In this document: piece after piece, positions 5,116 through 55,707 of the stretch
Position numbering within the stretch: position 1 is the first letter of the stretch
Layout of the letters: every line of letters starts with the position of its first letter
Virus record (IMG/VR): IMGVR_UViG_3300009160_000053
Coordinates: 1-55,898 of that record
Source: a virus
Length of the DNA: 55,898 nucleotides
Reading direction: 5' to 3' (one strand)
Program-made: the position numbers and the translations under genes
Notes under the pieces: model-generated
What the model was told of the DNA's origin: nothing
The model's database searches: none
Seen by the model: the letters and a program-made list of their open reading frames with translations, nothing else

Positions 5116-5116
5116 T

Positions 5117-5893
5117 ATGGAAGTAGCATCAATCATCAATCGCGATTCCCTCTCCGCCACAATCGGTACGGAATCGTTCAACATCCCCAGTTCTCATCCC
5201 AAGTTTGAGGACATACGGAGGGCGTTGCTAGACGGAACACCCGGCGAAGAGATTCTGCCGATGTTCCAGACTGCTAAAGCTGTAGTCGACTATACTGACG
5301 GAGCTATTGAGATTCGCGGTGGCAAGGTGTTCTTTGCCAACGAGGAAGTTGGTGGCTCGGTGGTAGACCGCATTCTAGAGTTCATGTCGGAAAAGTTGCC
5401 CAACAAGCCACTATTCCGCTTCCTAGAACGCGTCATGCGCAACCCATCCATGCGCAGTCGCGAGCAGTTATACGACTTCTTGGAGCACAAGAACCTGCCA
5501 CTCACGACCGATGGCAAGTTCCTTGCTTACAAGAGCGTTAGCCGTGAATACATGGATCATCACACTGGCAAGATCTCCAACAAGATCGGCAGCGTGATCG
5601 CCATGCCACGGCATCGGATCTCAGACGATCCTAGCCTTGGTTGTCACACCGGCCTTCACGTCGGTGCGCTCCAATACGCAGCAGACTTTGGCGGCTCTGA
5701 CCGCAAGGTAGTCATCTGCGAGATCGATCCTGAGCATGTAGTGTCTGTGCCACTTGACTGTGAGTGCCAGAAAATGCGTGTCTGTCAGTACCGTGTGGTA
5801 GCTGATTACACAGGTCCGATCGAAAGAAGCCTTGTCGATGATTACGACGATGAAGAGTCGTACGACGAAGACGAAGTAACCTCAACCCAATAA
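5117..5893 (+). CDS. rIIB: rIIB-like protein (258 aa)
   Basis: The ATG at 5117 follows AAGGAGG closely, two bases after the rIIA stop. The core carries the rIIB signature: LPLTTDGKFLAYKSV (127-141), YMDHHTGKISNKIG (145-158), MPRHRISDD, then CHTGLHVGALQYAADF (176-191). The C-terminus is very acidic (about residues 238-253). T4 rIIB is 312 residues, so this one is somewhat short at the ends but complete in the core. With rIIA it is expected to act early at the host membrane in exclusion avoidance or lysis timing. A GC-rich hairpin follows immediately, suggesting the operon ends or is attenuated here. Confidence 0.85.
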   Translation: MEVASIINRDSLSATIGTESFNIPSSHPKFEDIRRALLDGTPGEEILPMFQTAKAVVDYTDGAIEIRGGKVFFANEEVGGSVVDRILEFMSEKLPNKPLFRFLERVMRNPSMRSREQLYDFLEHKNLPLTTDGKFLAYKSVSREYMDHHTGKISNKIGSVIAMPRHRISDDPSLGCHTGLHVGALQYAADFGGSDRKVVICEIDPEHVVSVPLDCECQKMRVCQYRVVADYTGPIERSLVDDYDDEESYDEDEVTSTQ

Positions 5894-10513: not shown

Positions 10514-13500
10514 TTAATCCACGTTACGAGGGCCAAGCTCTCGAGTCATTTGCTTCCGCTCGCTTGCCTTATCCCAAAGCTCATATTTATTTAAGACAAG
10601 TACGTCTGCAAGCTTGTTCGCTTTGCCAGTAAGCCGAGTGATTTCGTTCTGGACATCACCTGCCCCTCGAGAGGGCAGTTCCTTCACCCATTCCGGATCT
10701 CGAAGTCTTTCTCTTAGAACCCTTGCTCTCTCCATTACCCAATCATCACGTTGCTCGTCGTTAAGCGTAATCCCCCTCACCCTTACAATTCTATCTGGCA
10801 TCGATACCCAAGCGCGTTGCTTGGCTAGCTCAGACCACAAAGGATCTGGATTATCTCGGTACCTCAAAACAATATCCGCATAGTTGAACAAAGCCTGCTT
10901 CGCCCTATCCCAATTATCTTTAGGAACCGAAGCACCGTCTGAGAGCATTGGCTCCCCAAGAACGTTGGTCATTGGCTTGTTAAAGTTCCGCAAGAACGGG
11001 ATGTTTCCAAGAGCCATCGCCATCACGCCGGTCGCACTATGGACATTTCCAAACTTATCAGTCTTCTCAGGGAAGATCTTTCTATCCGCTTCAGTCAACA
11101 AGTTGCCAAAAGCCAAGGAGCTGCCCGTCTTCATCAGGAAGCCAACAGCCTTTCTATCCCATGTTGCGCTCTCCAAGTTACTTAAATCGCTAAGAGTTTT
11201 CACTCCACCAAGGAAGGGAACATCCAAAACGCCGGCACCAAACGATTTGAAGGCGGCCAATGTAAATTGCATCGCCACCTCGCTAGACGCCGCTTGGTCA
11301 GGTTTCTCGTACTTCGAGTAATCGCTCATGTATCCCAAAGCCTTAAAGACAAGGTAGGTTGGCGACCAGTTCGGATTCTTGAACCAAAAGTTACCAATCT
11401 TAATGCTATCCGCTTGCCACTTACCGCTATCAATTAAAGCTTGTTTGTAAGCAAAGTCAGTTGGTCCTCGACCAGAGAAATCAATAAAGTGTTCTTTCTC
11501 CTCTTTGTCGTCGTCACACATTCTCCCAATAATTGCGGCAATACCCGCGGCAAGCGCCACCATCCCAAAGATTCCACTGCCCAGCTCCATTGCTTTCATG
11601 TCGCTCGGTTTTGTCCTTTTGCCCTCCCCGTAAACGGTCACCGTATCGCTCCCACTCTTGAGCAACCCGTAACCCACCCAGTTCAACCAGTTCTGATAGA
11701 CCGACGTTACGATTCCGTAGAAAGGCTGAACTAGCTTTGCTGCAAGGTGTTCGTTTGACCACCCTTCTAACAGCTTCGAAAGCTTCCCAAGAACACCGAT
11801 AGGCTTGTTTGTATTTGCCATCACGGTACCTAGGAAGAACGCGTCTTCTGTAATTGCCCCGACCATTCTATCAATAGCTACCTTCTCTGACTGACTGCCC
11901 TTATTCCATACCCTGTTCCAATAAGAATTATTAACTCCTCTATTCCTTCTCATTCTCAAATACAATTCCTGCCTAAAGTCTAGCGTCCCGGGCTTTAGCC
12001 TTTCACCCCGCTCTTGCCTTGCCTCTGCTTCCAACTCTTGAACAATCCCAGGGCCTTCAAACCCATTAGGCAGGTACTCGTTTCTGCCAGCAATCTGTCG
12101 GCCTAGCTGTAAGACATTCTTTAGATCAGTAGACAATAGCATATCAGCTTTCGGGGCTAATCCTTGATAGTTGTTTTGCAAATCCTTAACCACATCTTCG
12201 GCAGCCAAAGCTGCACATATTTCCGTGTAGAATGTGGTGGTTCCCAAATCCAGAGAGTTATACAACCTGGATATCAGCACTCCCAAGCCTGTCGGGCTAA
12301 CCTGAATAACCGGAGTTGTTTCAGGATAGGCTGGTGCTCGAACTGTGCCAACTCCCGCAACCTTGGCCGCGCCACGCACCAACTTAAATGTCTTATCCCA
12401 TACACCCTTTGAGATCGCAATCTTGGGCCAAATCCCCTTTCGGTTCCATCCAAACCAAAGTTCAGCCATCCCGCTAATCCATCGGCCAAACGATGATTCC
12501 GCGTTAATCCTAACACCCCCTTCAGCCATAATCTCTGGCAAGGGCCTACCCGAAATACGGGAAGCAAGAGTCTTGCCAGGAGCTAAGGCTTTTCCAGCGC
12601 TGTCTCCGGTCGCAAGCAAATCAACAACCTCGACAAAAGCTGTGTTCAAAGCCCTAGGCAAGGCCTTGTAAACTGCTTTCGTTGAGGAAAAGCTTTTCTC
12701 TTTGGCTGCCCTCATCCCAAGGATTGAGACAAGATTAAGAGTATTCCCGATAGGTGAGAGCAAGTTTACGGAAATGGTTTTTACACCCTGAAGAATGTTT
12801 GTATAGAATTGCCCAACAAAAGCCTCAAGCACTGTTACCCCGGAGTCTTTCTTTATCTCGTCGAGAATATCCAACGTCTTGGTAGCTGCGCTCCTTGAGT
12901 TTGGTCCGTTCGGGTCGTTGACAATTTCTTCTGCTAGCTCACGGATTTTCTCTGCCGACTGCTTACTGATCGACCAATCTTCGTTCTGAAGTTTGAGCTT
13001 CTTAGCGATAAACTTGTAAATGTCCTCGTCCGTCAAATTCCCCGTCAGCGCCAGCTTAACAATACTGCCAGCGTTTTCTTTTATCACCCTTGTTGCTTTG
13101 TTATCCGCCTTTCCAAATAGGCGCTGCATCGACTTCTGAAACTCTTCCTTAGCAAGTGTCTCAAGTTCTTCCGACACTTTCGTCAACACACGATTCAGTG
13201 TTTCTGGCTTAACCTCTATTCCGCTAACCCGAAGTTCTTTGGTCAACTCCGCAAGGACTTCAGCTTTTCTGCCAGCAAGCAGATACCGTCTATTAAAGAC
13301 AAAGTCTTTAAAGTTAAACGCTGGTGTCGTCATGAAAGCCCGAATGTCTGATTTTGTAAACGGCTCGTCCATTGCTTCAGACATGGCCTGCATAATCTTT
13401 GGGTAGCTGCCCTCGTCCACCGACTCAGCCAATTGACGATTAACAATGTCGATTGCCTGGCCAAGAGATTCCCACGAGTTCATGGCGTCCCTAAATCGCT

Positions 13501-16500
13501 TGAGGGAGAGAAGCTTCCTTTGCTCTTGGCTGAGTCGGCTTCGTGTAAGGATTAACTGCCCCTCCGCTTTAAGTTGAATTCGTTCTTTAAGAATCCTTCG
13601 TATAATCCCAACAGCAGTTTCGTGAGGCAAAAGCCTTTCCTTGTCTTTATTAGCCAAGGCTTTCTCAAAGTTCTGAACAAACCCGTTTATGACATTATCG
13701 AGGATTGCTCTGCTAGCCCTAGATACAGCTTGCCCAGGCTTAGCGGAACCAACGCCAGCCAAATCGTTCTGGTCATCCAAAAGTTTTGTGTTTCCAAAAC
13801 GTTTCCAAAGATGGTTTCGGTATTCCCCCGTAGTTTTCTCAGACTCTTCGTCTAGAACGTCCTGAGCTTTCTCAATATTCTCCAACATCTTCTCTTTTGA
13901 TACACCAAGTTCACTCGCTGCCTGGTCTAGTGTCCCTGTCCCCTTTTGGAGGAGAGCTGCAGTACCTTCGGCAATTGTTGCGGAGAGCTGCCGTTGTTTT
14001 TCCTGCGTTTCCTCGGCACCCTTGAGCAACGCTATCATTTCCTTGGCAGTCTTTATCTGCTGATCCAAGACAGTTGATAACGTGTTTGTGCTCATCCTCT
14101 GCCACTCGGCCGACGTGGAAGAGATGTATTTGGCCTTAAGCAGCAACTGTGCCCACACTCCGTTGTTTGCGGCCTCGTCGATGAGGCTACCCAGTTTCTG
14201 TACGTCAGGAGAGTCAAACACTTTGCCAAGAGCTTTTTCGATGGCCTCGTCACCAGCCATTTTACCCTTTTGAATATCTGCCGCGAATAACCCAACCTGC
14301 CGAAGCCTTTCCACCTGCTTGGCATTCGTTGCAAACCACATCCACCCAGCCGCACCAATCCTTGTGTAACCACCAAACGCCCTCAAGCCTTGAGCCAAAG
14401 ATGTACCGATATCAGCCTGCTTCTTTGCAATACCAAACTGCAAGGCGCGAAGCTCTTCAGACCTTGTTGGATTTGCTTTCGCAGCTTTTTCCAGCTGCTG
14501 AATCAAGATTGTGTTTAAGATAACGATATTATCAAAGTGAGTAGTTGTACCATCTTTGATGGCCCTGAGATCATCGTCTCGAACCTCAATATCGGGGCTG
14601 AGCAATGCATTTGCCGCAAGCTCCGCACCGCCAACCCTTTGAATGAGTTGAATCATTTCCTCGGCCCTCAACGGCTGGGTGCGAACAGAGTATTTGAAAT
14701 CCCGAAGTGCCGAAGCACTTTTAATCTCTTCGCCAAGTCTTGTATCTGCAGACAGTTGACCCGCAAAGCCCTGGGTTTTGCTTCTGCCTTCTTTCCTGCG
14801 CGCTTCCGACATACCGCTAAGGGCTTGCTCACGCTCTTCACCGCTCCTCACGCTTCCCGACCCGGAGTAAGAGTCATTTCTGTTTTCGACAAGGCGGATA
14901 GTTCCCGAGTCTAAGTCATTTTTAAGCCTAAAAACTAACAACCCAGTCTTCTTATAGACTTGGCCTCTGTAGTTATCACCTCGAGCCACCATCTTTGCTG
15001 CAATACGACTCAAAGCCCCATACCTTGACGTCGATCCGGTTGTGTCCATCAAGATGTTGTCGATATAGAATTTAAAGGTTTTAAAGACTTTCTCTTTTGC
15101 CGACTTTGCGTCTTTCTTGAGCCCCTGCTCATCTCTCCCAGGGTTATCGTAAGATTGAACAGCTTCCCCCTTACCAAGGCGGTTTGTTGCTTTCCCGGTC
15201 TGGCTTATTTCCGTGTACTCAAGTTCCTGATTTCCGCGTTTGGGCAGACTTCCAAGATCAATAGCGTTGGGGAAATAAAATATGGGAACTTTCTTAAACC
15301 CTCCGGGCAACGAGACAACTGGCGGGATTTTAATGGTAATGGTTGTTCCGTTACGAATCCCTGTTTCCGCCCCGTAATCGTTGTTCCTTGTGACCACGGG
15401 GAATTCTTCTTCTTGCTCAGACTGCAAACTCTGGGGCGTACTTTGTACTGTCGTCAAAACACCATTTTTCACAGTCCGTGCGTCGATCTCGCAAAGGGGC
15501 GCCACTAGCGACAAATCTGTTCTGCTTTTTCCATCCTGGAACGACCCAAATACCCAATCTGTAATTTCTCCGTAGCTGTACCCGTGTTCGTCTTGGCTAA
15601 CCGTAACCTTTTGGTTGACCTTATCGATAGTTACTTTGATTTTAGTTTTGTCGCTACCTGCATCCCGGAACTTATAGAAGATTTCGTTGACCGCTTGAAC
15701 CACATCCCACGGAGTAGCCGTCGATACAGCGTTGAAGAGCTCGTCCCTGGCAAGCGCATCGACATTGTAGTTACCCTTGTAAGCGAATAGATCGCCCTCA
15801 AAGCTGACCACGCCAGACCCAACAAATTCACCATCTCTGTCCACAAGCCTTACCCCCTGAGGAGCCCTGTCCTTGAAGACCATCTGGGGGAATGTGACGT
15901 GATCTCTGTTCTTAATGATCTTAAGAGCTAACTCCTCAAGGTTATTTGTTGTGCCAGATCCAGGGAATTTAATGATGTCTCCAGGCTTAGGGACGTAATC
16001 CGCTGGCAGTTTATTGTAAGAAAGCATCTCGGCCTTGGTGATTCCGTTCCTCGACGCAAGCTCAAGGGCGGTAAGTGTCTCGGGCTCCTCAAAGAAGTTC
16101 GGGACTTCTACGCTCTTTGATGTCCCTGGAATAATGAGCGTCGAACCTGCCACCGCCTTACCCATCACCAATGTATTTGCTGCCTTCAGATCCGCTACTG
16201 ATACCCCGTTCTTCGCAGCAATATCCGCTAACACTTCGTCAGAAGTTCTCTGCCTTCCCTCGGGAACAACGTATTCTTTTTCTGCAACCGGTACGTCGAT
16301 AGTTTTAGCTTTTGAAGCTTGGAACAAGAAGTTTTGAGACACGTCTCTCATCGGCCCAGTGGCACTCTGTTTGTTGCCACGGTTGACAACCGACATGCTT
16401 TTCGGAGTAGCCTGTGCCAAGGCAAGCTCTTGAAGTTTCCTTAACCCTTGGTTGTTAACCTTGCCATTGCTGATCGTCCACAACCCGAATTCTTTCGCAA

Positions 16501-19500
16501 TTCGAACGACGTCTGGATCGACTAGGCTAGCTCCGTTCTCAAATTTATATGCTAGGTAAGCTTCTGCTTCGTTACGAACGATATGGTCAAAACCCTTTTG
16601 CGAATCACGCCCACGCTGAATAGCCTGCAACAACAGATCCATCCTTCTGTTGTAAAGGGCCGAGCGAACCTCAGCCTGACTGAAGCTAATTGGATCCTCA
16701 TCTAGCTTCTCCTGCTTCGTCTCTAATACCTTTTCTGTCTTTGTTGGGATGGCCTTTCCGTACCACTTCCCCTTGTAGTAAATGTCTCCGAACTCACCGA
16801 GCCTTCTAATCGCTTCCTGAACAGCCTCATCAGCCGTCCTCGCCCTTACATACACCTTCCGAGACTTTGAATTTGCGTTGGTCAAAGTCCCAGATTTAGT
16901 ACCCCCGTACCGTTTACCCTTATACAACTTCGAAGGTGTTGTCCCCAAACTTTTCGACGTGAAGTCAGGACTCTCGGGGGTTAGCTGGAATTCCCACATA
17001 TACCTGCCCCGCTCATCACGAGCTGGCTCGTTTTTAAAGAGAGCAGAGTTCTTGACTCGCATCCCTGTGATAACAGGTTTTGCTAGTAGTTCTTTCTCTC
17101 GCTCCTCAAGCTTCAGTTCTACCCGCTTAACGAATTCCAGGTCAGGCGCAACCGGTAGAATTGTGCGGATTGATACTCTTTCCCGCCCCTGGAATCGAGT
17201 AATGACAAGCCCGTTTACCTTGTCATAGAAAGCCGAAGCAGCGTACTCGCTGTGAAGGTTCGGGACGCTCGCACCGTTCACAAAGACTGGCAATCTAAAG
17301 TCACCATTCGTATTTTGGTTTGAGTTAAATCTAACAATCATCCCGAGTCCGGGGTTTTCTTGGAACACCACCTGAGCAGATATGACTTTCTCTTCCCGGT
17401 TACCAAGACCGACAAAGTTTGCTGGGAACACCCACTCCACTGTCTTCTCGTACAGGTCAGACGTACCCCGTTGCAACATGCCCCTACGCTTCATTTCAGC
17501 CGTAATGGTCGGAGAGATGTTCTCGACCTGGCTCGGGGTTAGCTTGGTCCTCTCACCTTCTTTGACGGTGATCTTACTGATGTGCTCGGTGTCTACGGCT
17601 CTGTAGAAAATGTCGGACAGCTCATGCTGTTTGGCCAGTTCCCTTTTTCTTGTCTTCTCAAGGTCAGCCAGAACCTTTGTAAGTTTTTTAAGTTCACCCC
17701 TCTTTTCGATCTGCTCCCATGCACCCTGGGTTGCAATTTCCTTTTTCTTATCCGCAACCATCTTGTCCAGGGCTGCGACATTGGCGTTTGAGAGGGCAAG
17801 AGCCGAACGAAGTTGTGCAACTCTCTTTACGTTGGATGGTGTATTAGTTGCGGCAATGATCGCCCGAGTGTCGATTTCTTTGATGGTCTTCCCAATCTTC
17901 TTGCGAAGTTCTGGGTCTAGCGGAGCGGGTGCTTTATTGAGCCTTTCCTTTTTGTCCTCCCACTTGCCAGTAGCCGCGTTCCATTCCGCGTCACTCGATG
18001 TAATGTCTTGGACGGAAACGCTTGTCTGAATGAATTTTTCGTACGCAGCGGAGGCCTGCTTCGCAACGTCCAAAAGCTTTTTAGATTTCTCGTCGTAGCC
18101 GATAGCTTCCAAGAATTCAATTGTCCTCTTGGTTGCAATTTGGACGTCGACCAGCTTACGAATCGCCTCGTCCTCAAAAGATTGTATTGAGTTATTTGTC
18201 TTACGGACTTCGAGAGCCTTAGAAAGAGGTCCAAACAAGATATCGACAACAGGATCTTTTACCTCCGGGATTCTGTATACTGGCTCAATCAATTTGTTTT
18301 CCCCGGAAAGACCCATCCAGAATTTCCTTAGGTCTGCTCTTTCCTTGAGCTTTTCCAACACAGAAGAAAGCCATTCGTCATCTTGAGACAGCTTGTTTAA
18401 AGGATCTTTAATCTTGTAGTACGCCCCCAGCCCAGCCTCTTCGATTGCGGACAGCAGACGGTTATACTCAGCCCGCGAAGCAAAACCCTTATTTAAAGCC
18501 GTGTCATCGTCGTGCGGTGTTTCTTCAAACACAGAAAGGTCTGCAAGATTTCTACCGTGTCTCTCAAGCTTGATATCGTTCAGCTCCATCCGTTCAGGGG
18601 TAACCGCGTTACCAGTCCTTGCAGCAATGAATTCAAAGTTTGAAGCGTATTGCTCAGTCGAACCTTCCTCCTCAGCCGTGTTGACGTCCATGCCTTCGTA
18701 CCATTCCTCATCCCCCATCTCGTTGAACGGATCGTTGTAATCTTTAGCTTGATATTGCGGCTCTTGGTTAAGAACCTCTTCCCCGTCAAGATTGTAAACA
18801 GGCTTTTGAATGCTAGCCCTCGCCTTATCTCTGGCCTGAATGTAATTCTCAATCTCTGCTTTCTTTCTTTCTAGGTTTAGCTTCTGTTTCGTATCGCGAA
18901 TTCGAGCACGAAGCTCTTCCATTTCAGACAAGGGCTGATTTGGTTCCGTGACTTCGCCCGCACTAGAAAACTCGTTGGCTTCAAGCTCTTCGTTCGAGTT
19001 CTTTTCGATATGTCGCAACCTTGTTGTTACAGATTCCATCGCTTTCTGTATTGGCGACAACGCGAACATGTCTGCCGCGTTTCCTTCCCTTGCGTTTTCA
19101 GAAAGGCTCGAAGCCAGCTCATCCAGGATGACGTTAAAGAGTGTTTTTGATTTTGCGGTATACCGAGTCTTGCCGTTTGAGATCTTTGTAGTGGGAGCAA
19201 TCTTTTCAGCAATAAAGGCGACTAGAGCTTTAAAGTCATTATCAGCTTCAACCTCCGGGTAAGCGCTTGGGGCTGCGCCTACTTCGTCTAAAAGATCCCT
19301 CTCCTTGGAAGCCAAGTCTCGGATTGCCACCAAGGCTTGTTCTCCCCTGGCTTTCTGCGAAAGCATTTGATTCATAATCCGGCTGAAGAAAGCTTTGTAC
19401 TTTGCTCCCGCTTCTTCGCCCATTGATTCCGAAGCCGCGGAGGCTTGAGCCATTAGGAGGTAGAGGTTCTTCTCCACGCCTTGATCCATGATTTCGTTGG

Positions 19501-22500
19501 CCATGTTCTGTACCGGACCTTTTAGACCCATGTGTCTTTCAAGGGGTTGCAAGTAAGCAACGAGTGCAAGGTACTGAACGTACTCAGCAGGAGCTGAACC
19601 AGCAGCTGATACAAAGAGTGCGTTTCTTTCGTCGCGATTGATGATCTTGTTATCGGCTAAGTTGCCCAAGAAAGTCTGAGCCGCATCCCGGTTCATGTCC
19701 GCTATGTTCAGAACAAGGTTTCTCAGGCCTCGTTTTCCGGCCGGTGACTCAAGGATCCGAGTGGAGTCCTGCTGAGCCTTCTGCAAGTGCGACATCTCCA
19801 GACCACCCTCAGCGTTCGTCTCAACGATAAGGCGGTTAAGCCTTTCCTTGCCCTCTGGCGTTTTTGTATTTACTCGCTCCTCAAGCACTCGATATAGAAA
19901 CCATTTTCCAGAGTCCAAGTCGTCCGGCACTGGACCGTTTAATCCAGTAGCCAGTCTAGCCGCCAGTTCGAGGGTATACTGTCTACGGCCTTCGTCTTTG
20001 AATACCGAACCCAAGACCTGTTCGCGTCCGTTCCCAGCGACAACCATCCACTCGCCAACTGCTTCGTCAAAGATAAGCAGAGGAAGTCCTTGATTTGACG
20101 CCCCAGCACCCTCGTTAACAATGGTCTCAGGATTAAACTCCGAGCCCTCGATACGCATTATTTTAGCTCTCTCGTCGTTGCTGTATGCGTAGTTTCTTTG
20201 GTTGTCGCCGGTATACTTTTGATTTGAACTAAACTGCTTTGAACTTCCTTCGTGCGATGCTTGAACTTTAGAGCGATCTACCCAGGCAAACCTAAATTTG
20301 TGTAGCCCCTTCGTAGCGTCACGAACTGTCCGGCTATCCCCAAACTCAATAATCGAACCAGTCGGTATTTGTTTGTTGCTTTTGGCCTGGTTAGTTTCTC
20401 TGGCAAGCTCACGCCCAATCTCTTCCAAGTTTGGGGTGTCTGCTCTGACAAGCCCACCCTCTGTAAGACTTACAACGTTTTCAGTCTCAGGCGATACGAG
20501 ACGGATCAGATTCCCAATAACTTGGTTGTTCTGAGGGGGAGCGTTGGGGCCGTACTTCTCAAGTTGATATAGAATGTTGTCCGTGGCATCCAACAAACCG
20601 CCGAAGACTTGGTTCTGTTGAATGGTTAAACCAAGCTTACCGAGTAGATCAAACAAAGCTTGTCGGAGAGTCTTAAACCAGAAAGCTACGTAGCCGTCTT
20701 TAGGAGCACCTTTGAGCATAGCCTTGATTGACTGGACGTCCTCATCTGTTTGTCCGCTGCCCAAGTCTTCGGTTGAATACCCAAGCCGTGCTTTCTGGTG
20801 GACAAAACGGAGGTACTCAATTGTAAGCTTTCGCTCGCTAATATCTCTTCCGTACTTTGCGCGAAGCACTTCTTTCGCAGCTGGGTCTATCTCTTCGTTA
20901 GCTTTATCGAGAACAAATTCCATTGTTTCGACGTAGGCCTCTTGAGCCGTAACCTCACCATTCTGAATCCTGTCTTTATGAATTGTCGTAGCCATTGCGC
21001 GAATTGTTGCAAACAGTGAGTTGTGAAGCATCTCTTCTGAAGCGATCCCAATGAGATAACCCCTTCCAGCTTCGTTCAGTCTGCTTGAGAATTTTCGACC
21101 GACCAAATCCCGGTTTACCCTTAGCTTCTTTGGGTTAATGAATACGGTGTTGAAGTCTGTGTTATTCCACTCTGTCCAAGCACCCATGTCCCCACCGCGG
21201 TTACCGAAAAGAACTTTGACGTTCTTAAATTTTAGATCGGTAAGTGCTTTTGTGAAATCGTCAACTATGTCCTGTTCGTAATACGGTAGACGAGAAAACC
21301 TTTCATCGACCATCTGCCCATTCCGAAGTGTAGAGGCACGCCGTGGTACTCCCGCTTCTGCATCCTCGTTGTACAACGGTTCGTTTTCTACGGTTACCTC
21401 TGCAATCGAGTTCCTATCTACCCTCTTCGAATCTTTAAATGGGAGGCCAATTTGACACGACTCATCTTCTTTAACTACTCCTTGAGTCGCATCTAGCGTC
21501 CCCTGTTTTCGGCTTCTCCTATCTATCCGCGCCCTATCAGTCCAGGTATCAGCTGTTACAAGTTCTTTAATCTCAGGGATTGTTCTGGAGTTCAGCCGGA
21601 ATCCAGCCCTATGGAGCATCTGGTCGTGCTTGTCAGCGGCATCGTTTGGAGTCGCAATATAAACAACTCTTGGGGCTGTCCCAGTTTGGTCGTCCAGCGA
21701 AAGACCAGCACCCGCTTTTGTAGGAGTGGCTAAAGCGATCTTTTTATTGCCAGCTTGAAAGTCGTTAATATCCGAAGTCATCTGGTTGCCGCCTTCGCCG
21801 TAGATAACCGCAGGAGGAATACCTTCTTTGGAGAACATTTCGTTAAGCGTCTCAAGAAGCGACGGGTGCTCCCCAAGGCCAAGCTCGGGGAACGCAACAG
21901 AGTTAACGAACTCGCCGAAAACGATGACTTGTTTACCTTGTTCTAGATCTTGAAGGGCGGAGGTAACGATGTACGGCAGCTTGTTTATCTCGGACCAAGC
22001 CTCCAGCTTGAATCTCATCAACGCCTCAAACTCCTGCTTCTTCTTGCTTTGCTCTTCCGTAAGGAGTGAAGACCCGTCGCCAACTAGTTCTTGTATTTGT
22101 CTAAGGTAGTAGTTTTCAATTTGTTGAAGCTGCTTTTGGATTACGTCTCCGGCCTCAAGCTCAACCACACCAGAATACGGTCTCTGCCCTTCTGGAACTC
22201 TTCTAATATACGCACCAACTGTTGAGGCGCTTTCGGCAAGGTTTGCGATGGTTGTTTCCCGATCCTTGGATGTGTCCAGCATCGTACGAACGGTTTGCTC
22301 GGATTTGCCGAGGATGCCTGGGAGGAAATACATGACACCGTTCGCCCTGTCGGCCGGTGTGGCTGTTGAGAAGATTTTGAAAGCAGATGTCTCTTTGGAC
22401 ATCCTTGTCCGAATTGTTCCGGTATTCTTAAGGTTTTGAGATTCGTCGAATACGATGACATCTGCTGTTTCAATCCCCTTGATCTGACCCTTTGAGAAGG

Positions 22501-25500
22501 CATCGTAAGTATAGAAATACACCCGGTTTCTCGGAATGTTTGCGGCTGCTAACTGAGACTTCAGTCCGTTCCCGGCATCAATCAACTCGTTACTCTCTGT
22601 AATAACGATGATCTTTCCGTTGGTCTCGTTTTTGGCTTTTGCCTTATCGTCAGCAATATACCGAGCCGCACTTAAGAAGGTTCTCCCCTTACCAAGACCG
22701 GCATCGTCAGCTAGCAAAGCAGCGGTTCTTCCCTCCTTGTAAGCGTTTATGATGAGATTTGCTGCCTGCCTTTGGTGAGGCAAAAGATTGTTGTTTGGGC
22801 TAACTAGATTTGGAACAGCTTCGGGATTCCCAGTAGACAAGCTTTTAAGAGTTGGTTCGCTGATCCCGACGCCAGGCTTCTTGCTATTCAGAACCGCTTG
22901 CATTTCTTGAATAGCACGGAAAGCAGCTGCCCTGCGTGGCGAAAAGTCTAGCTTGTCTTGGATGTTTGCGACCTCGATGGATGTAAGAAGCCCAGCTTCT
23001 TCCAGCTCGCTCAGCATGTCTCTTGCCAAGCTTTGTGCTTCCAGATCGTTCTGAGTCAGCTGAACCTGTTTCTGCTCTCCCTGCAGTACCTTGAATATTT
23101 TCTGTGGTCCCTGGACAAGTTCGGGCAACTCACCAGTCTTTTGATATTTTTGGAAATCAAGGTCACGCTTCTCTTTGACGAAGGCAACCATGTCGTCAAC
23201 AAGTTTTGGTAGCGCTTTTGCCAATTCACCTGTTGAGGTCTTGTAACCGCCCTGGTTAAGCACCCCAGCTATTTCAGCCAATCTTGTAGTGTTCTTTGCC
23301 AACTCTTTCGGGTCACCGTTCTTTTTGCTGGCCTCGTCCAACGCGGCTCCCAAAAGAAACTTTTTTGCTGGGTCGCTGTTAAGGGAAGCAAAGTATGCGT
23401 TCTTGGCATTTTTCAATATGTCAGTTCTGACCTCGTTTTCGTCAAGATTTTTGGAAGGACTTCCGATTGTATCCTCAAGCGTGCCTGAGCCGTCGTCATC
23501 GCCTAAAGCAGTTTGAAGACTGATGGCCGCTTCCATCCCAACATTGCCACCAAGCCTACGTCCAAACTTCCTAGAGAAGTCACCAACCACTGAACGGAAG
23601 ATCCGGTCTTTAGAGATTTTCTTTGCGTCTACAGCCTGGAACGCTTCCTCGGCTTCGCCTTCCCCAAGGTTCTCCGTCCTATTTTTACGGAGATCATATT
23701 TCTTCCTGAGGGTTCTCCAGTAACGAAGACGAGCCGCGTTCGCCAGCCTGGTCTCGTCGAAGGACATATTCGGTCTGGATTTCTTTAGGTTCTTAGCCCT
23801 CTTCTGGAAATACTTCTCAGCTTCTCCAAGGTTTTTAGCTTCGTCAGGTGACTCAAGAAGATTGTTTATTTGATCGATGTACTCTGGGTTTTCTTCTGTA
23901 AGCCTAAGCTCACCCGTCACCTTCGAACCTTTTGAGTTTGTACGAGGCTTGCGCTTAATAACTGGCATGCCTTGCTGCAACCTTGAGAACCTTGCATTTA
24001 TGGAGGAGAGAGCCTCATTTACGTTGGTTGGGAGAGTCTCCTCAACCTCAAGCACATCTTTGACTTCTGCTTTTTCCTGAGTTGCATATTCTTTTGGGGC
24101 TTTCCAAGAACTTTGTACCGAGGAGACAAAGCCCCGCATAAAAGCAACTTGCTCTTCTTCTTTCTCGGGCCAAGGAAGGTTAGCCTGCTCAAGGACAGGG
24201 ATAATCTTGTCAGCAATATCGGGTAGAAGAATGTCCTTAGGGAACGCTTCTTGATCACCTTTAATCAGCCCTTGCGCTACGTACTCGTCCCGCAGTTTGG
24301 ATACATAAAAGTCTGTGGCGTAAGAAAGGCTTCTTTCGTACTTACTGTCTGGTTTAACTTCTCCAGCAGCAACACTATCATCAATAGGCGTTATTGAAGG
24401 AGCGACTGCCTCTGAACTTTGTTCAGCAGTCCCTGGCTGCACGTTTTCTTCAATAGGGACTTCTTCGTCGGTTGCGGTTGGGGTTTCTTTTTCTTGTGTC
24501 GTTGGTGCTTGCTGCTCATCAGTTGCCTCCGATTTTGGGGCTAAAGAATCTAAGTCAATAGCTTCATCTGAACCAAATATGTCTTCATTTTCCGGACGCT
24601 CCATTTCGGTCATTGGCTTTAAGCCTTGCGATAGCTCGGTTTCGAGACCGACATCGCTTCCCGCGGCTTCCGAAGTAAGCGGGGCATTTGGAATATCCTG
24701 CTTAGCAGCCGCACTCGATCGCCCTCTAGGGCGGAAACCCAGAGCGTTAATGACAAGACTCGCGATTGTTCCAGCAGCACCGCCAACCTGCGCGGATCTA
24801 TAAACATCCTCCATTACATCTTTTGTTGGATTATAGCCAAGTTTCTCAAAGAGGTTTGATGCGTACTGCTGAAACCATTCTTGTGTGAATTCTTCAACAC
24901 CCTCTTTACCAACCTCAAGAAGATATGCCCGGAGCCCTTTGCCAAATTGCCCACCAGTTGCGTCGTTAAGCTTGTCGATCCACCCGCTCATGGGTATTGC
25001 TTCGCTAATCCCAACAATCGCGTTAAGAGCCGCAAAAGTAGCTACTTGATCGGGATTTGCCCCCTGCTCGAAGGCTTTACGTGCCGAACCACCACCAGAC
25101 AAGGTTGCGCCAGTTGTCGCAGAGTAAGCCGTGGCTCCGACACCAAGTTCTCCAGCAATGCCACCGCCAACCATGATCCCAATGCTTTGCCCAATTCCAC
25201 TGGCTACTTGTCCCGTGAAAGATTCGTCCTGTTCTTTTGTGGTTGGTATTGAGGCGTTAACGTCCCGTTCGTAGTTTCTTGCCAGCTGATAGCCCCAAGT
25301 CGTATCGAGAGGGTAAGGTTTCCCCTGAGTCAGATAGCCCGTCATGCTTGTTACGTATCCAAGGGCATCTGCGGCACCAGTGACGTTAGAGTAAAAACCC
25401 TTCATCATGGAATTTGGAATAGACTTCGCTGCCTCAGTCGCGCCTTCTATTGCACCCTCAGCAAAGTTCTTTAAATACGAAGGCTCTTCTCCTTTTGACT

Positions 25501-25897
25501 GAAGCTTAAACTTTGCGTCTTGTGGCAATATTTCGGCTGAAACCGGCAAGTCATTCTCCTTACCCTGCTCAACTCTATCCAGAAGTTCGTTCAGACTTAT
25601 CTCTGTGTTTAGTTTTGGTGGCGGGGAGAATGGAGGGGGCTCGTTTGAAGAAGCGATTTCAATTGCAGTTGGAGGATTCGAGAACTGGGAAACCTCTCCA
25701 GATGGAGAAAGTGAAAGGGTTTTATTAAATTCCCCGGTGGCAGCTTCTAGCTCGGAAGCTTGAGGCTCAACCTCCATACGATCCAAGAGCTCGTATAGGC
25801 TCCCTGCCTCTGGGGCTTGGGGAACAGCGGGTGTTTCGCTTTCTTCAGTCTCGCCTAGTAACTGGTCGAAACTCTTAGTTGGATCAAATTGACTCAT
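10514..25897 (-). CDS. Giant polyvalent virion protein with helicase, ParB-like and LysM-like domains (5127 aa)
   Basis: Uninterrupted 15.4 kb frame. Order from the N-terminus: acidic linker with repeats (LYELLDRM, LNELLDRV); Gly/Ala-rich hydrophobic region about 150-390; SF2 helicase about 1035-1480 with ADDAGLGKGRT (~1066), FDESQ (~1149), STATP (~1179), ATPTKAGAGLSL (~1392) and QMLHRAGFRL (~1429), nearest in style to strawberry-notch/SNF2; SEEMLHNSL (~1622), perhaps a degenerate zincin; DdrB/ParB-like domain about 1850-1970 ending VVAGNGREQVL; two LysM-like repeats about 3215-3313; possible degenerate GHKL about 3380-3450; a membrane segment near 4780. Such domain chains define polyvalent proteins (DarB type), thought to be injected to protect or remodel the entering genome. 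ATGA overlap with the preceding gene. Confidence 0.85.
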   Translation of the reverse strand: MSQFDPTKSFDQLLGETEESETPAVPQAPEAGSLYELLDRMEVEPQASELEAATGEFNKTLSLSPSGEVSQFSNPPTAIEIASSNEPPPFSPPPKLNTEISLNELLDRVEQGKENDLPVSAEILPQDAKFKLQSKGEEPSYLKNFAEGAIEGATEAAKSIPNSMMKGFYSNVTGAADALGYVTSMTGYLTQGKPYPLDTTWGYQLARNYERDVNASIPTTKEQDESFTGQVASGIGQSIGIMVGGGIAGELGVGATAYSATTGATLSGGGSARKAFEQGANPDQVATFAALNAIVGISEAIPMSGWIDKLNDATGGQFGKGLRAYLLEVGKEGVEEFTQEWFQQYASNLFEKLGYNPTKDVMEDVYRSAQVGGAAGTIASLVINALGFRPRGRSSAAAKQDIPNAPLTSEAAGSDVGLETELSQGLKPMTEMERPENEDIFGSDEAIDLDSLAPKSEATDEQQAPTTQEKETPTATDEEVPIEENVQPGTAEQSSEAVAPSITPIDDSVAAGEVKPDSKYERSLSYATDFYVSKLRDEYVAQGLIKGDQEAFPKDILLPDIADKIIPVLEQANLPWPEKEEEQVAFMRGFVSSVQSSWKAPKEYATQEKAEVKDVLEVEETLPTNVNEALSSINARFSRLQQGMPVIKRKPRTNSKGSKVTGELRLTEENPEYIDQINNLLESPDEAKNLGEAEKYFQKRAKNLKKSRPNMSFDETRLANAARLRYWRTLRKKYDLRKNRTENLGEGEAEEAFQAVDAKKISKDRIFRSVVGDFSRKFGRRLGGNVGMEAAISLQTALGDDDGSGTLEDTIGSPSKNLDENEVRTDILKNAKNAYFASLNSDPAKKFLLGAALDEASKKNGDPKELAKNTTRLAEIAGVLNQGGYKTSTGELAKALPKLVDDMVAFVKEKRDLDFQKYQKTGELPELVQGPQKIFKVLQGEQKQVQLTQNDLEAQSLARDMLSELEEAGLLTSIEVANIQDKLDFSPRRAAAFRAIQEMQAVLNSKKPGVGISEPTLKSLSTGNPEAVPNLVSPNNNLLPHQRQAANLIINAYKEGRTAALLADDAGLGKGRTFLSAARYIADDKAKAKNETNGKIIVITESNELIDAGNGLKSQLAAANIPRNRVYFYTYDAFSKGQIKGIETADVIVFDESQNLKNTGTIRTRMSKETSAFKIFSTATPADRANGVMYFLPGILGKSEQTVRTMLDTSKDRETTIANLAESASTVGAYIRRVPEGQRPYSGVVELEAGDVIQKQLQQIENYYLRQIQELVGDGSSLLTEEQSKKKQEFEALMRFKLEAWSEINKLPYIVTSALQDLEQGKQVIVFGEFVNSVAFPELGLGEHPSLLETLNEMFSKEGIPPAVIYGEGGNQMTSDINDFQAGNKKIALATPTKAGAGLSLDDQTGTAPRVVYIATPNDAADKHDQMLHRAGFRLNSRTIPEIKELVTADTWTDRARIDRRSRKQGTLDATQGVVKEDESCQIGLPFKDSKRVDRNSIAEVTVENEPLYNEDAEAGVPRRASTLRNGQMVDERFSRLPYYEQDIVDDFTKALTDLKFKNVKVLFGNRGGDMGAWTEWNNTDFNTVFINPKKLRVNRDLVGRKFSSRLNEAGRGYLIGIASEEMLHNSLFATIRAMATTIHKDRIQNGEVTAQEAYVETMEFVLDKANEEIDPAAKEVLRAKYGRDISERKLTIEYLRFVHQKARLGYSTEDLGSGQTDEDVQSIKAMLKGAPKDGYVAFWFKTLRQALFDLLGKLGLTIQQNQVFGGLLDATDNILYQLEKYGPNAPPQNNQVIGNLIRLVSPETENVVSLTEGGLVRADTPNLEEIGRELARETNQAKSNKQIPTGSIIEFGDSRTVRDATKGLHKFRFAWVDRSKVQASHEGSSKQFSSNQKYTGDNQRNYAYSNDERAKIMRIEGSEFNPETIVNEGAGASNQGLPLLIFDEAVGEWMVVAGNGREQVLGSVFKDEGRRQYTLELAARLATGLNGPVPDDLDSGKWFLYRVLEERVNTKTPEGKERLNRLIVETNAEGGLEMSHLQKAQQDSTRILESPAGKRGLRNLVLNIADMNRDAAQTFLGNLADNKIINRDERNALFVSAAGSAPAEYVQYLALVAYLQPLERHMGLKGPVQNMANEIMDQGVEKNLYLLMAQASAASESMGEEAGAKYKAFFSRIMNQMLSQKARGEQALVAIRDLASKERDLLDEVGAAPSAYPEVEADNDFKALVAFIAEKIAPTTKISNGKTRYTAKSKTLFNVILDELASSLSENAREGNAADMFALSPIQKAMESVTTRLRHIEKNSNEELEANEFSSAGEVTEPNQPLSEMEELRARIRDTKQKLNLERKKAEIENYIQARDKARASIQKPVYNLDGEEVLNQEPQYQAKDYNDPFNEMGDEEWYEGMDVNTAEEEGSTEQYASNFEFIAARTGNAVTPERMELNDIKLERHGRNLADLSVFEETPHDDDTALNKGFASRAEYNRLLSAIEEAGLGAYYKIKDPLNKLSQDDEWLSSVLEKLKERADLRKFWMGLSGENKLIEPVYRIPEVKDPVVDILFGPLSKALEVRKTNNSIQSFEDEAIRKLVDVQIATKRTIEFLEAIGYDEKSKKLLDVAKQASAAYEKFIQTSVSVQDITSSDAEWNAATGKWEDKKERLNKAPAPLDPELRKKIGKTIKEIDTRAIIAATNTPSNVKRVAQLRSALALSNANVAALDKMVADKKKEIATQGAWEQIEKRGELKKLTKVLADLEKTRKRELAKQHELSDIFYRAVDTEHISKITVKEGERTKLTPSQVENISPTITAEMKRRGMLQRGTSDLYEKTVEWVFPANFVGLGNREEKVISAQVVFQENPGLGMIVRFNSNQNTNGDFRLPVFVNGASVPNLHSEYAASAFYDKVNGLVITRFQGRERVSIRTILPVAPDLEFVKRVELKLEEREKELLAKPVITGMRVKNSALFKNEPARDERGRYMWEFQLTPESPDFTSKSLGTTPSKLYKGKRYGGTKSGTLTNANSKSRKVYVRARTADEAVQEAIRRLGEFGDIYYKGKWYGKAIPTKTEKVLETKQEKLDEDPISFSQAEVRSALYNRRMDLLLQAIQRGRDSQKGFDHIVRNEAEAYLAYKFENGASLVDPDVVRIAKEFGLWTISNGKVNNQGLRKLQELALAQATPKSMSVVNRGNKQSATGPMRDVSQNFLFQASKAKTIDVPVAEKEYVVPEGRQRTSDEVLADIAAKNGVSVADLKAANTLVMGKAVAGSTLIIPGTSKSVEVPNFFEEPETLTALELASRNGITKAEMLSYNKLPADYVPKPGDIIKFPGSGTTNNLEELALKIIKNRDHVTFPQMVFKDRAPQGVRLVDRDGEFVGSGVVSFEGDLFAYKGNYNVDALARDELFNAVSTATPWDVVQAVNEIFYKFRDAGSDKTKIKVTIDKVNQKVTVSQDEHGYSYGEITDWVFGSFQDGKSRTDLSLVAPLCEIDARTVKNGVLTTVQSTPQSLQSEQEEEFPVVTRNNDYGAETGIRNGTTITIKIPPVVSLPGGFKKVPIFYFPNAIDLGSLPKRGNQELEYTEISQTGKATNRLGKGEAVQSYDNPGRDEQGLKKDAKSAKEKVFKTFKFYIDNILMDTTGSTSRYGALSRIAAKMVARGDNYRGQVYKKTGLLVFRLKNDLDSGTIRLVENRNDSYSGSGSVRSGEEREQALSGMSEARRKEGRSKTQGFAGQLSADTRLGEEIKSASALRDFKYSVRTQPLRAEEMIQLIQRVGGAELAANALLSPDIEVRDDDLRAIKDGTTTHFDNIVILNTILIQQLEKAAKANPTRSEELRALQFGIAKKQADIGTSLAQGLRAFGGYTRIGAAGWMWFATNAKQVERLRQVGLFAADIQKGKMAGDEAIEKALGKVFDSPDVQKLGSLIDEAANNGVWAQLLLKAKYISSTSAEWQRMSTNTLSTVLDQQIKTAKEMIALLKGAEETQEKQRQLSATIAEGTAALLQKGTGTLDQAASELGVSKEKMLENIEKAQDVLDEESEKTTGEYRNHLWKRFGNTKLLDDQNDLAGVGSAKPGQAVSRASRAILDNVINGFVQNFEKALANKDKERLLPHETAVGIIRRILKERIQLKAEGQLILTRSRLSQEQRKLLSLKRFRDAMNSWESLGQAIDIVNRQLAESVDEGSYPKIMQAMSEAMDEPFTKSDIRAFMTTPAFNFKDFVFNRRYLLAGRKAEVLAELTKELRVSGIEVKPETLNRVLTKVSEELETLAKEEFQKSMQRLFGKADNKATRVIKENAGSIVKLALTGNLTDEDIYKFIAKKLKLQNEDWSISKQSAEKIRELAEEIVNDPNGPNSRSAATKTLDILDEIKKDSGVTVLEAFVGQFYTNILQGVKTISVNLLSPIGNTLNLVSILGMRAAKEKSFSSTKAVYKALPRALNTAFVEVVDLLATGDSAGKALAPGKTLASRISGRPLPEIMAEGGVRINAESSFGRWISGMAELWFGWNRKGIWPKIAISKGVWDKTFKLVRGAAKVAGVGTVRAPAYPETTPVIQVSPTGLGVLISRLYNSLDLGTTTFYTEICAALAAEDVVKDLQNNYQGLAPKADMLLSTDLKNVLQLGRQIAGRNEYLPNGFEGPGIVQELEAEARQERGERLKPGTLDFRQELYLRMRRNRGVNNSYWNRVWNKGSQSEKVAIDRMVGAITEDAFFLGTVMANTNKPIGVLGKLSKLLEGWSNEHLAAKLVQPFYGIVTSVYQNWLNWVGYGLLKSGSDTVTVYGEGKRTKPSDMKAMELGSGIFGMVALAAGIAAIIGRMCDDDKEEKEHFIDFSGRGPTDFAYKQALIDSGKWQADSIKIGNFWFKNPNWSPTYLVFKALGYMSDYSKYEKPDQAASSEVAMQFTLAAFKSFGAGVLDVPFLGGVKTLSDLSNLESATWDRKAVGFLMKTGSSLAFGNLLTEADRKIFPEKTDKFGNVHSATGVMAMALGNIPFLRNFNKPMTNVLGEPMLSDGASVPKDNWDRAKQALFNYADIVLRYRDNPDPLWSELAKQRAWVSMPDRIVRVRGITLNDEQRDDWVMERARVLRERLRDPEWVKELPSRGAGDVQNEITRLTGKANKLADVLVLNKYELWDKASERKQMTRELGPRNVD

Positions 25898-26937
25898 TGG
25901 CCAGATAGGATTTCATAGTTGATTATGTTCAGCTCTCCCTTTTCTTGGCCGGCCAGTGCTTCTTGGTACTGTTGTTCAGTGACTAGCGGTTTAAACGTTT
26001 TACCGTTTCTAATAACCGTAAGCCGATACTTAGCTTCTTTTGGAAGAATGGTCTTCTCCATCATTCCGACACCTTGATCGTTATTAAATACTCCTCTTTT
26101 TGTTTGACTACCCTTAGCGAGCATTTCAGACAACTTAGTTTCTGCTTCTTGTACTTTTTTTTCTTGGGCTTCCATCGCTTTCGTATTACCGCTGGCAACC
26201 GCTTGCCCGTAAATTGTCTTCTCGGTTCTTAAGTTTTCTTGCGAGTTCTGAATAAGAGTCTTTATATCTTCTCTTTCGTTATCTTGATTCTTGTTTGCGC
26301 TGTTTACCGTAATTTCCATCAGTTTTGACATATACGCAGGATTTCTTTGTAACGCTTGTTTGGCTGCGTATGTTCCGGCATCCCGCAAAGCAGCTGCATG
26401 ACCCTGCGAAAGCTCTGAAATAGGAACTCCAGATTGAAGTAATGTGCGAGCCTCGTCCGCAATCCCACGCGCAACCGGATCCTTCAGAGTGGTGGAGAAG
26501 GTAGTAAGATTGTTAATGTCTTCGAGGCGATGCTTTTGACCTGCGGAAGCAGCGAGAAGGTTTGCCCTGTTTAGGTTGAATGCCTCTCTCTGCTGGTTGT
26601 TAAATATTGCAACTGCTCTTGGCGAAGCCCCCTCAAGCTCAATGGGCTTATACTGCGCTCTTTTCAAACCTTCGAAGTCTTCGACTGAAGCCATATTATA
26701 AAGATCTGTATTTTGACCTTGAACTTGAGATGTTCCAAAGATTGTTGCTTTCTCAAGGTCACGCTTCTGCTCCATTTCCTCCAGCTGATATTTTCGGATT
26801 ACCTGCTCTTGTTCAAAAGCTTTGGCGCGCATGGACTGATCCTCAGACGCACGAGCTTCGCGCATTCCCATAAGGACGTTGCTAAACAGTCCTTGAAAGT
26901 TTGCAGCTGTGTTACGTGCGTAGAGATCCGGGTCCAT
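25894..26937 (-). CDS. Probable internal virion (ejection) protein, coiled coil (347 aa)
   Basis: No conserved enzyme motif. The protein is largely helical with long charged coiled-coil stretches (KAFEQEQVIRKYQLEEMEQKRDL; MEAQEKKVQEAETKLSEML) and a beta-like C-terminus (YRLTVIRNGKTFKPLVTEQQ). Its place between a glycine-zipper protein and the giant polyvalent protein matches the three-gene ejection module of podoviruses (T7 gp14-gp15-gp16 layout), and coiled-coil middle members are typical. The stop overlaps the giant gene's start (ATGA), which fits stoichiometric assembly. Assigned by context, not by sequence similarity. Confidence 0.6.
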   Translation of the reverse strand: MDPDLYARNTAANFQGLFSNVLMGMREARASEDQSMRAKAFEQEQVIRKYQLEEMEQKRDLEKATIFGTSQVQGQNTDLYNMASVEDFEGLKRAQYKPIELEGASPRAVAIFNNQQREAFNLNRANLLAASAGQKHRLEDINNLTTFSTTLKDPVARGIADEARTLLQSGVPISELSQGHAAALRDAGTYAAKQALQRNPAYMSKLMEITVNSANKNQDNEREDIKTLIQNSQENLRTEKTIYGQAVASGNTKAMEAQEKKVQEAETKLSEMLAKGSQTKRGVFNNDQGVGMMEKTILPKEAKYRLTVIRNGKTFKPLVTEQQYQEALAGQEKGELNIINYEILSGQ

Positions 26938-26946
26938 ATATTCCGG

Positions 26947-27858
26947 TTAGGTATCTGAGAGATCCATGAAATCAAAGATTGAACGAGAGTCGACTTTGCC
27001 AAGTTTCGCTGCCGAAAGACCACCAAAGCCAGATACGGTTGAGCCGAGACCACCAAACATCGTCCCTAATTGCCGACCTTGGGCACCTCCGTAATTTCCA
27101 GCAAAAGAACCGCCAACCGACATACCAATTCCACCACCAATCATTGCTCCAGCAACAGTTCCAACTCCAGGGAAAATACTCCCAAGAGCGCCACCTATTG
27201 CCGCCCCACCACCGCCTCCACCCAATCCACCAAGCAACGCACCTAATCCGTTACCGCCATACTTGGAATCGTATTCGTAACTTGCCTGCTGATTCATATT
27301 GTAGGCGTTGGCGTCTGCCTCTGCCTGCTTGTTCGTAATCTGATTGTTGTAATAAGCGAGAGTGTTATCTTCCGAGCGAATCTGCTGCGGGGTAAAGGCA
27401 AGATTCATTGCTTGCAAAGGCATAAGCCCACGACTTTCACCACGAAGTTTGCTCAACATATCGACACCAGAATCCTGCAGTTGGAGCGACGACAACCCGA
27501 GATCCCTCGCCTCTAAAGTACGTGTTGCATTTGAGCCACCACCGCTTGACAGACCAGTGAAAGCGGCAGACCGAGAAACTCTTTGTGCAACATCAGCTGG
27601 CAGCAACCCCTCCGCACGCTGAGCAGCTATCTGGCTAGTTTTATCAAATCCAGCTTTGTATCCAGGCGAAAGTTTTTCAAGAGAGTCTTGATATTTGCTT
27701 GCTGAAGAAAGGATAATATCCTGCAACTCATCAAATTGGATCTCTTGCTTTTTAAACTTATCAAAAGCCGTTGTAAGATCTGACAGCTCGGCTTTTTGAT
27801 AAGTCGGAGCAATGTAATTGGGCTTTTTAGGATCGTTGCCGCCAAATAAAGAACCCAT
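26947..27858 (-). CDS. Probable internal virion protein with glycine-zipper membrane region (303 aa)
   Basis: The N-terminal two thirds are helical (KAELSDLTTAFDKFKKQEI; ANAYNMNQQASYEYDSKYG). Residues about 200-285 form an extended Gly/Ala region (GLGALLGGLGGGGGGAAIGG, then VAGAMIGGGIGMSVGG), a glycine-zipper able to insert in membranes. The same layout is seen in T7 gp14-like ejection proteins, which form the outer-membrane part of the DNA-transfer channel. GGAG precedes the ATG. It is the first gene of the ejection module and has a possible promoter in the 83-base gap upstream. Confidence 0.65.
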   Translation of the reverse strand: MGSLFGGNDPKKPNYIAPTYQKAELSDLTTAFDKFKKQEIQFDELQDIILSSASKYQDSLEKLSPGYKAGFDKTSQIAAQRAEGLLPADVAQRVSRSAAFTGLSSGGGSNATRTLEARDLGLSSLQLQDSGVDMLSKLRGESRGLMPLQAMNLAFTPQQIRSEDNTLAYYNNQITNKQAEADANAYNMNQQASYEYDSKYGGNGLGALLGGLGGGGGGAAIGGALGSIFPGVGTVAGAMIGGGIGMSVGGSFAGNYGGAQGRQLGTMFGGLGSTVSGFGGLSAAKLGKVDSRSIFDFMDLSDT

Positions 27859-34914: not shown

Positions 34915-34915
34915 T

Positions 34916-36016
34916 TTATCCCTCAAGTTTTATAAGGGTAAAAGTAACTGTAACAGTTCTCTGTCCACCGCTATTATTTGTAATGGCTAGTGGTATTTCA
35001 GCAGCGACTGTGGATTCATTATTGAATCCAATTACGGCCGGAGTAAATACAACTGACGTTGCTGTGCCAGCAATAATTTCGGCAACTACTCCAGCACTTG
35101 CGTCGGGGTCAGCAGTACTAACTCTGGAGGCATCAGTTGTACGACTTGCAACGTCCGAATAAGCCCTAACCCAACAAGCTGTATCTGTAGCAACTTTGCA
35201 AATAGCGTAACCTTTATAGGCTGGTAAAGTGACATTAGCTGTCGCGCCATTTGCCAAGCTTGAAGTGGTAATAGCAAACACGCCTCTTGGCTGGAGAGCT
35301 CCCCCAGATATTGCGCTAATCCATTGAGAGCTATCGGTATCTTGATAGTAAATGTAAATGTTGCCGGTATTTGAGTCGTACCATAAATCCCCTTGGGAGA
35401 TCCCAGTTGTAGGAGCTGTATCCTGAACTGTTATTTTGTAAACAGGGCCAGTAAGACCTGTAGGACCTTGAGGCCCGGCAGGACCAGCTGCACCCGTAGC
35501 ACCGGCTACACCTGCGGGACCTTGAGCCCCAGTAGAACCAGTTGCGCCCTGGGGTCCAGTTTGACCTGTGGGACCTTGGATTAAACCAACTGCTAACCAC
35601 GATGTTCCGTTAGAAACATATAGTTTTAGGTCACTTTGAACGATATATCCAGTCCCAACGGAAACAGAAGAAGCAGACGGCAGAGCCCCAACCGTTGCAA
35701 CTGACCCCGCAATATTAATAAGACCTGTTGGGTTTGCATCAAGAACATAGGTATCTGTGCCAATTTTCTTAAGGTATCCAGTTGTGCCTGTCAGATTTGC
35801 TATATTGGTAAGAGCAGTCGGCACTACTCCAGTTACAGAACCTGTAAATTGGGCCGTGCCCGTAACAATAATTCCCGTAGTTCCTATCTTTAAAGCCGAT
35901 AGCGTGCCGTCCCCGTCTGTTATGAATGTTGGTGTGGCGGTAAGACCAGAAGCAGAGCCTATCGTCAATAGCTCTGTATACGAAGAAGATGGAGACCTTC
36001 CTGTAAGGCTGCTCAT
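34916..36016 (-). CDS. Collagen-like tail fibre component (366 aa)
   Basis: The start is ATG at 36016, overlapping the upstream stop (ATGA) and preceded by GGGAG. The N-terminus (ITDGDGTLSALKIGTTGIIV) is a repeated-strand fibre head; a central Gly-X-Y run (GPTGQTGPQGATGSTGAQGP) follows at about residues 155-205; then a globular end (DLWYDSNTGNIYIYYQDTDS; FTLIKLEG). DSNTG/YIYYQD resembles the needle-like segments found after collagen stalks in other phage fibres. It lies between the adaptor-like protein and the protease and probably connects tail and distal fibre. Confidence 0.7.
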   Translation of the reverse strand: MSSLTGRSPSSSYTELLTIGSASGLTATPTFITDGDGTLSALKIGTTGIIVTGTAQFTGSVTGVVPTALTNIANLTGTTGYLKKIGTDTYVLDANPTGLINIAGSVATVGALPSASSVSVGTGYIVQSDLKLYVSNGTSWLAVGLIQGPTGQTGPQGATGSTGAQGPAGVAGATGAAGPAGPQGPTGLTGPVYKITVQDTAPTTGISQGDLWYDSNTGNIYIYYQDTDSSQWISAISGGALQPRGVFAITTSSLANGATANVTLPAYKGYAICKVATDTACWVRAYSDVASRTTDASRVSTADPDASAGVVAEIIAGTATSVVFTPAVIGFNNESTVAAEIPLAITNNSGGQRTVTVTFTLIKLEG

Positions 36017-39895: not shown

Positions 39896-39896
39896 A

Positions 39897-55702: not shown

Positions 55703-55707
55703 TTGCA

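Follow-up and report, generated by a model that had tools for sequence, protein, structure and literature searches.

Phage polyvalent proteins are encoded next to virion genes, and DarB, a SWI2/SNF2 polyvalent protein in the head of phage P1, protects injected DNA in cis; a polyvalent protein of 12,242 aa is cited by Iyer et al. in the same survey (PMC5512222). The N4-type vRNAP gp50 is ejected, its N-terminal domain being membrane-associated and presumed to contribute to the ejectosome at the inner membrane (PMC12633501), and some vRNAPs bear an ART domain (PMC5512222). A tape-measure/RNAP fusion of 5,002 aa is encoded by Thermus phage P23-45 (PMC10770324). Giant polyvalent proteins that bear helicases have been described already, as have N4-like giants with an ART domain.

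Here we analysed a viral DNA stretch of 55,898 bases (the window), in which a giant gene belongs with those of polyvalent proteins, since its product joins functionally unrelated domains in a single chain and late virion genes lie nearby. Its size, called unusual when the sequence alone was read, is less so than claimed, given the 12,242-aa and 5,002-aa proteins.

The giant gene and its genomic setting

The window carries a terminase gene at 53975-55708, rIIA/rIIB, fibre genes and the giant gene. The latter is a single frame of 5,127 aa, free of Ns, that spans positions 10514-25897 exactly on the minus strand, to which all window coordinates below refer (aa 1 lies at 25897). Its homologue in the relative G010 is full-length at 5,241 aa and 54% identical over most of its length, and that of G001 counts at least 4,368 aa, ending at the contig edge. 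Against G010, identity at the three codon positions is 64/75/35% over 5,051 aligned codons, and by this measure each 500-residue block of the giant is under purifying selection. The full-length homologue and the constraint across the whole length argue that the frame did not arise by chance, and the 15.4-kb, 5127-residue open frame of the sequence-only reading is thereby substantiated.

The genome of G010 (75,237 bases) has the same gene order, and its ends overlap by 127 bases, which indicates that it is probably a complete circular assembly. Since it holds additional genes, namely an integrase, a DNA polymerase, an exonuclease and a stand-alone helicase, the window is probably a genome fragment. 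The integrase gene (G010 L051:18093-19394) adjoins the terminase, suggesting a temperate lineage. The stand-alone helicase (G010 L052:730-1998) is a 422-aa DarB-like protein with canonical GTGKT and GRIHRAG motifs, and such a DarB-like helicase occurs also in genomes with class A giants (see below). Relatives were obtained from terminase searches, which gave 26 loci and later 47. Both halves of the giant had no tblastn match in 50,697 phage records, a first scan of viral contigs with the helicase region recovered nothing, one TerL scan of bacterial genomes gave no match, and a C-terminal scan with alignment A6 recovered G010 only.

The giant is the last gene of a leftward late operon, to which the tail fibre genes also belong, and it follows these genes behind two small conserved proteins. 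This place is the vRNAP slot of the N4-like Roseovarius Plymouth podovirus 1. Directly upstream lies the gene of a 347-aa protein (25894-26937), preceded by that of a 303-aa protein (26947-27858) with a Gly-rich hydrophobic C-terminal part and 37-64% identity to the window copy in an alignment of six relatives. These are the two ejection-type proteins of the sequence-only reading, and both indeed accompany the giant as conserved neighbours in related phages, but neither matched known ejection proteins in profile searches. The 347-aa protein is therefore a candidate ejection protein by position, and the 303-aa protein a candidate ejection or pore protein by position and composition. That the phage is a podovirus is tentative, as profile searches linked none of the lineage's virion proteins to those of N4-like phages or of 45A6; this result, together with an empty portal tblastn search, led us to reject an N4-like lineage by virion genes.

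Other genes of this strand include a subtilase-family (S8) protease gene amid the fibre genes (33232-34926; Pfam 4.8e-25), which has a homologue in G010, and three paralogous tail-collar-type fibre genes side by side (38316-40709). A PD-(D/E)XK endonuclease gene (43809-44240; Pfam PDDEXK_5 8.2e-13) and the gene of a conserved 204-aa protein (44231-44845), which is 65-89% identical in relatives and has a CHAP match of 2.1e-4, under the cut-off, were also seen.

Ends and middle of the giant protein

The N-terminal region (aa ~175-410; 24668-25375) contains a Gly/Ala-rich stretch at aa ~234-293, in agreement with the glycine-rich hydrophobic N-region noticed before. It matches PHROG 2206 (1.8e-7) and PHROG 10691 (5.7e-9), and hhalign relates it to the giant of Ruegeria phage 45A6 (6e-10) and, weakly, to the N-terminal domains of ten N4-type vRNAPs (1e-4); 45A6 against the vRNAP set gave 7e-6, and the reversed control 0.28. 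By tblastn, mostly vRNAPs were matched, the best match being 45A6. No RNA polymerase domain was detected: in the window giant the N-region holds the sole PHROG 2206 match, and the scanned class A giants have none. Similarity of the N-region to class A or H2 giants was not significant by hhalign.

The C-terminal region of ~1,000 aa (aa ~4060-5127; 10517-13720) is present in all cargo classes, which it unites with hhalign values of 9.8e-25 (against class A), 6.5e-15 (against class H2) and 3.7e-23. Within it, the membrane segment proposed near the C-terminus was recovered as a hydrophobic, probably membrane stretch at aa 4768-4795 (11513-11596; Kyte-Doolittle 2.16), and most homologues have such a segment at a comparable distance from the C-terminus. 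A C-terminal LPD38 domain was considered and rejected, PF18857 being unmatched in the window and hhalign to the 45A6 C-terminus giving 0.18-0.54.

Between these ends the giants differ. Class H1 comprises the giants of the window, G010 and G001; class H2 those of G015, G016 and G017, with 3,863-4,177 aa and a helicase; and class A those of eight records, seven of 3,480-4,344 aa and the partial G005. The ADP-ribosyltransferase domain ART-PolyVal (Pfam) was found in both class A giants scanned, slightly above the cut-off in G008 (2.8e-7) and slightly below it in G002 (2.5e-6), and the other members were assigned to class A by homology to these two. A P-loop motif was absent from all four class A giants searched. 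The middles of H1 and class A are not alignable as a whole (0.25), and their sole link, via class H2, is a zincin-like domain (aa ~1540-1745; 20663-21280), with hhalign values of 1.4e-5 between window and class H2 and of 3.3e-5 between class H2 and class A. Its motif is EExxH in the window (aa 1621), G010 and G001, whereas the canonical HExxH is retained in G015 and the class A giants G002, G004 and G009. An active MPTase-PolyVal peptidase was rejected for the window on account of this replacement and of PF18818 being unmatched.

H1 does not form a single clade in the portal tree: G001 groups with the class A phages G002, G004 and G009 (98/96), and the H1 label must change twice on branches that are well supported. 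The terminase tree, which is poorly resolved within the group, forces one change only. Cargo class does not follow the portal tree, and it is from this tree and few genomes that exchange is deduced. Since sister phages retain the end of the protein while its middle differs, the giant gene resembles a vehicle for delivery whose cargo can be exchanged.

Further domains were recognised in the middle of the window giant. The DdrB/ParB-like domain of the sequence-only reading (aa 1867-1986; 19940-20299) has a PF18763 match of 9.1e-5, yet its 18.1 bits lie under the curated cut-off of 27.6, and we regard it as weak. Two LysM-like repeats had been seen as well, and Pfam LysM matches two stretches (1.5e-9), the first at aa 3221-3257 (16127-16237), conserved in G010 and G001, and the second at aa ~3276-3312 (15962-16072) as placed from the alignment. 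The GHKL fold and the zincin-like domain had both been overlooked. The former, GyrB/Hsp90-like and located at aa 3381-3578 (15164-15757), is assigned by profiles and by predicted structure. The AlphaFold models had a mean pLDDT of 47.9 and 46.5, and owing to this low confidence fold matches were used only where they agreed with each other and concerned a single domain; for the GHKL domain these comprise a match to GyrB (Z 14.3, rmsd 3.2, 167 aligned; low-confidence model overall) and 319 Foldseek matches below 1e-3. In addition, PF13589 reaches its cut-off in the G010 domain, and the weak PDB profile matches of the region are GHKL proteins without exception. The window copy thus has a GHKL (Bergerat) fold that is degenerate at the ATP-binding residues, for in an alignment read by eye it lacks the N-box Asn and has Gln at the place of the ATP-binding Asp, which G010 and G001 retain, which makes ATP binding by this copy doubtful.

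The helicase module and the incoming genome

The module at aa ~1037-1482 (21452-22789) is a SWI2/SNF2-type, Strawberry-notch-like ATPase, as judged from Pfam (ResIII 3e-6, AAA_34 1.8e-4, SNF2 6.5e-4), PHROG 62 (1.7e-18), its motifs and the top structural match of a low-confidence model, the Sulfolobus SWI2/SNF2 core 1z6a (Z 9.9). In the distant giant G016, AAA_34 scores above its cut-off, and the C-terminal domain of Strawberry-notch is matched less strongly. The SF2 motifs GLGKG (K at aa ~1070), DESQ (~1151), STATP (~1178) and QMLHRAGFRL (~1426) lie where they had been read from the sequence and are kept in six giants including that of the window, three close and three distant, from two deep lineages. 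SWI2/SNF2 ATPases are thought to track along dsDNA without separating its strands (PMC5512222), and therefore dsDNA translocation is more likely than the unwinding that had been suggested, the ATPase activity being presumed from the domain.

Its place at the late-operon end, its vRNAP- and 45A6-like N-region and the exchange of its middle in relatives suggest that the giant is delivered along with the DNA, and on these grounds a polyvalent protein, as the sequence-only reading had it, is the best interpretation, apart from unwinding. Because the virion proteins are unmatched and N-region similarity is not significant in the other classes, delivery is argued here by analogy and position. We propose, with a probability of about 0.6, that the giant is a packaged and injected polyvalent protein that guards or clears the incoming DNA by means of a SWI2/SNF2-type translocase held at the envelope. 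It would be packaged in the virion and enter the host along with the DNA, through a channel formed with help from the two small upstream proteins, and its Gly/Ala-rich N-region and C-terminal hydrophobic segment would anchor it at the cell envelope, comparable to the N-terminal domain of N4 gp50. The ATPase might then track along the incoming dsDNA and strip or block proteins of the host, for instance its restriction and defence complexes, while the ParB-like, LysM and GHKL domains could represent further cargo or tethering modules.

Alternatively, a membrane-anchored SNF2-type translocase might pull the genome into the cell, as host RNA polymerase does for T7 DNA. Hydrophobic segments at both ends, a dsDNA translocase-type motor and a gene in the slot of an ejectosome-associated enzyme would all suit such a role; however, the class A relatives, with no P-loop in the four genes checked, must enter cells without a motor, and we consider DNA import unlikely. 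A broader scheme, in which a lineage of ~70-kb phages ejects a membrane-anchored chassis with swappable cargo and the SNF2-type motor of the window group both reels in and clears the genome, seems doubtful as well.

It could also be that the helicase has decayed in the phage of the window and that the protein is mainly a structural ejection protein. Alignment for broken motifs found all of them present, with Walker A reading GLGKG in the window copy alone and GxGKT in the five other giants compared, and this GKG instead of GKT, the degenerate GHKL motifs and the EExxH of the zincin-like domain would fit decay. Strawberry-notch ATPases, to which the AAA_34 match points, generally use GKG in Walker A, and the region ranks with the best conserved parts of the protein, the 100-residue blocks of aa 1001-1500 being 58-74% identical to those of G010, which makes decay rather improbable.

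If the virus were long-tailed, the giant might be a tape-measure protein to which enzymes are fused. Such a role would account for its size and late-operon gene; the podovirus type of the lineage is tentative, and the P23-45 fusion provides a precedent (PMC10770324). That protein resembles the giant in bearing an enzyme and in its similar size, although the virion place of the giant is deduced; it differs in that it serves as tape measure for a tail of great length and in that its enzyme is an RNA polymerase with cellular homologues. The lengths of close relatives range from 3,480 to 5,241 aa, the gene sits past the fibre genes at the operon end, and the N-region is like that of ejected vRNAPs, all of which renders a tape measure quite improbable. 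A non-virion protein with an intracellular replication or transcription role, e.g. RapA-like recycling of host RNA polymerase, is very improbable, for although the replication genes of phages often include helicases related to this one, these phages already have a stand-alone helicase in their replication arm, the giant is placed in the late operon, and swapping with a helicase-less form ill suits a core replication function.

Relation to known phage giants

Within the reach of our searches, three things are new: the lineage itself, a middle that is exchanged against a constant C-terminal region, and the occurrence of GHKL and LysM domains in a protein of this type. Three known themes, namely the polymerase that N4 ejects, polyvalent proteins and protective ATPases of the SNF2 type, meet in one gene slot, where close relatives swap the middle while retaining the C-terminal part. 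If confirmed, this would offer a natural chassis-and-cargo system for the study of how phages inject very large proteins, and the polyvalent repertoire of Iyer et al. would gain GHKL and LysM domains; the words LysM, GHKL, Hsp90, gyrase and histidine kinase are absent from their survey (PMC5512222).

P1 DarB and the SWI2/SNF2 polyvalent proteins share with the window giant a SWI2/SNF2-type ATPase in a phage protein encoded near virion genes, and the SWI2/SNF2 polyvalent proteins also a ParB-like domain as partner. Where polyvalent proteins have a methylase, it is almost invariably joined to a helicase of this type. The ATPase part of this DarB-type dyad is matched by the window giant, whereas the fused adenine methylase was not found: the motif [DNS]PP[YFW] is absent from it and from the other lineage giants tested, and the window giant has no Pfam methylase match. 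DarB-like protection by methylation is thus not applicable here.

The 45A6 giant (ANH49087.1; 3,912 aa) is likewise a single giant frame behind structural genes, with a similar N-region, a SF2/Strawberry-notch-like helicase in mid-protein and a hydrophobic segment near the C-terminus. It differs in its extra methyltransferase, GNAT and LPD38 domains, in a C-terminal region that is not alignable and in showing no LysM or GHKL match, and the virion proteins of its phage are unrelated to those of the window lineage. The N4-type vRNAP (gp50, Schitoviridae) is, like the giant, very large and encoded by the last gene of a late operon with small virion proteins ahead; its N-region is weakly similar, and an ART domain is common to some vRNAPs and the class A sister giants. 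Where the N4 protein has an RNA polymerase domain, the window giant carries helicase cargo instead.
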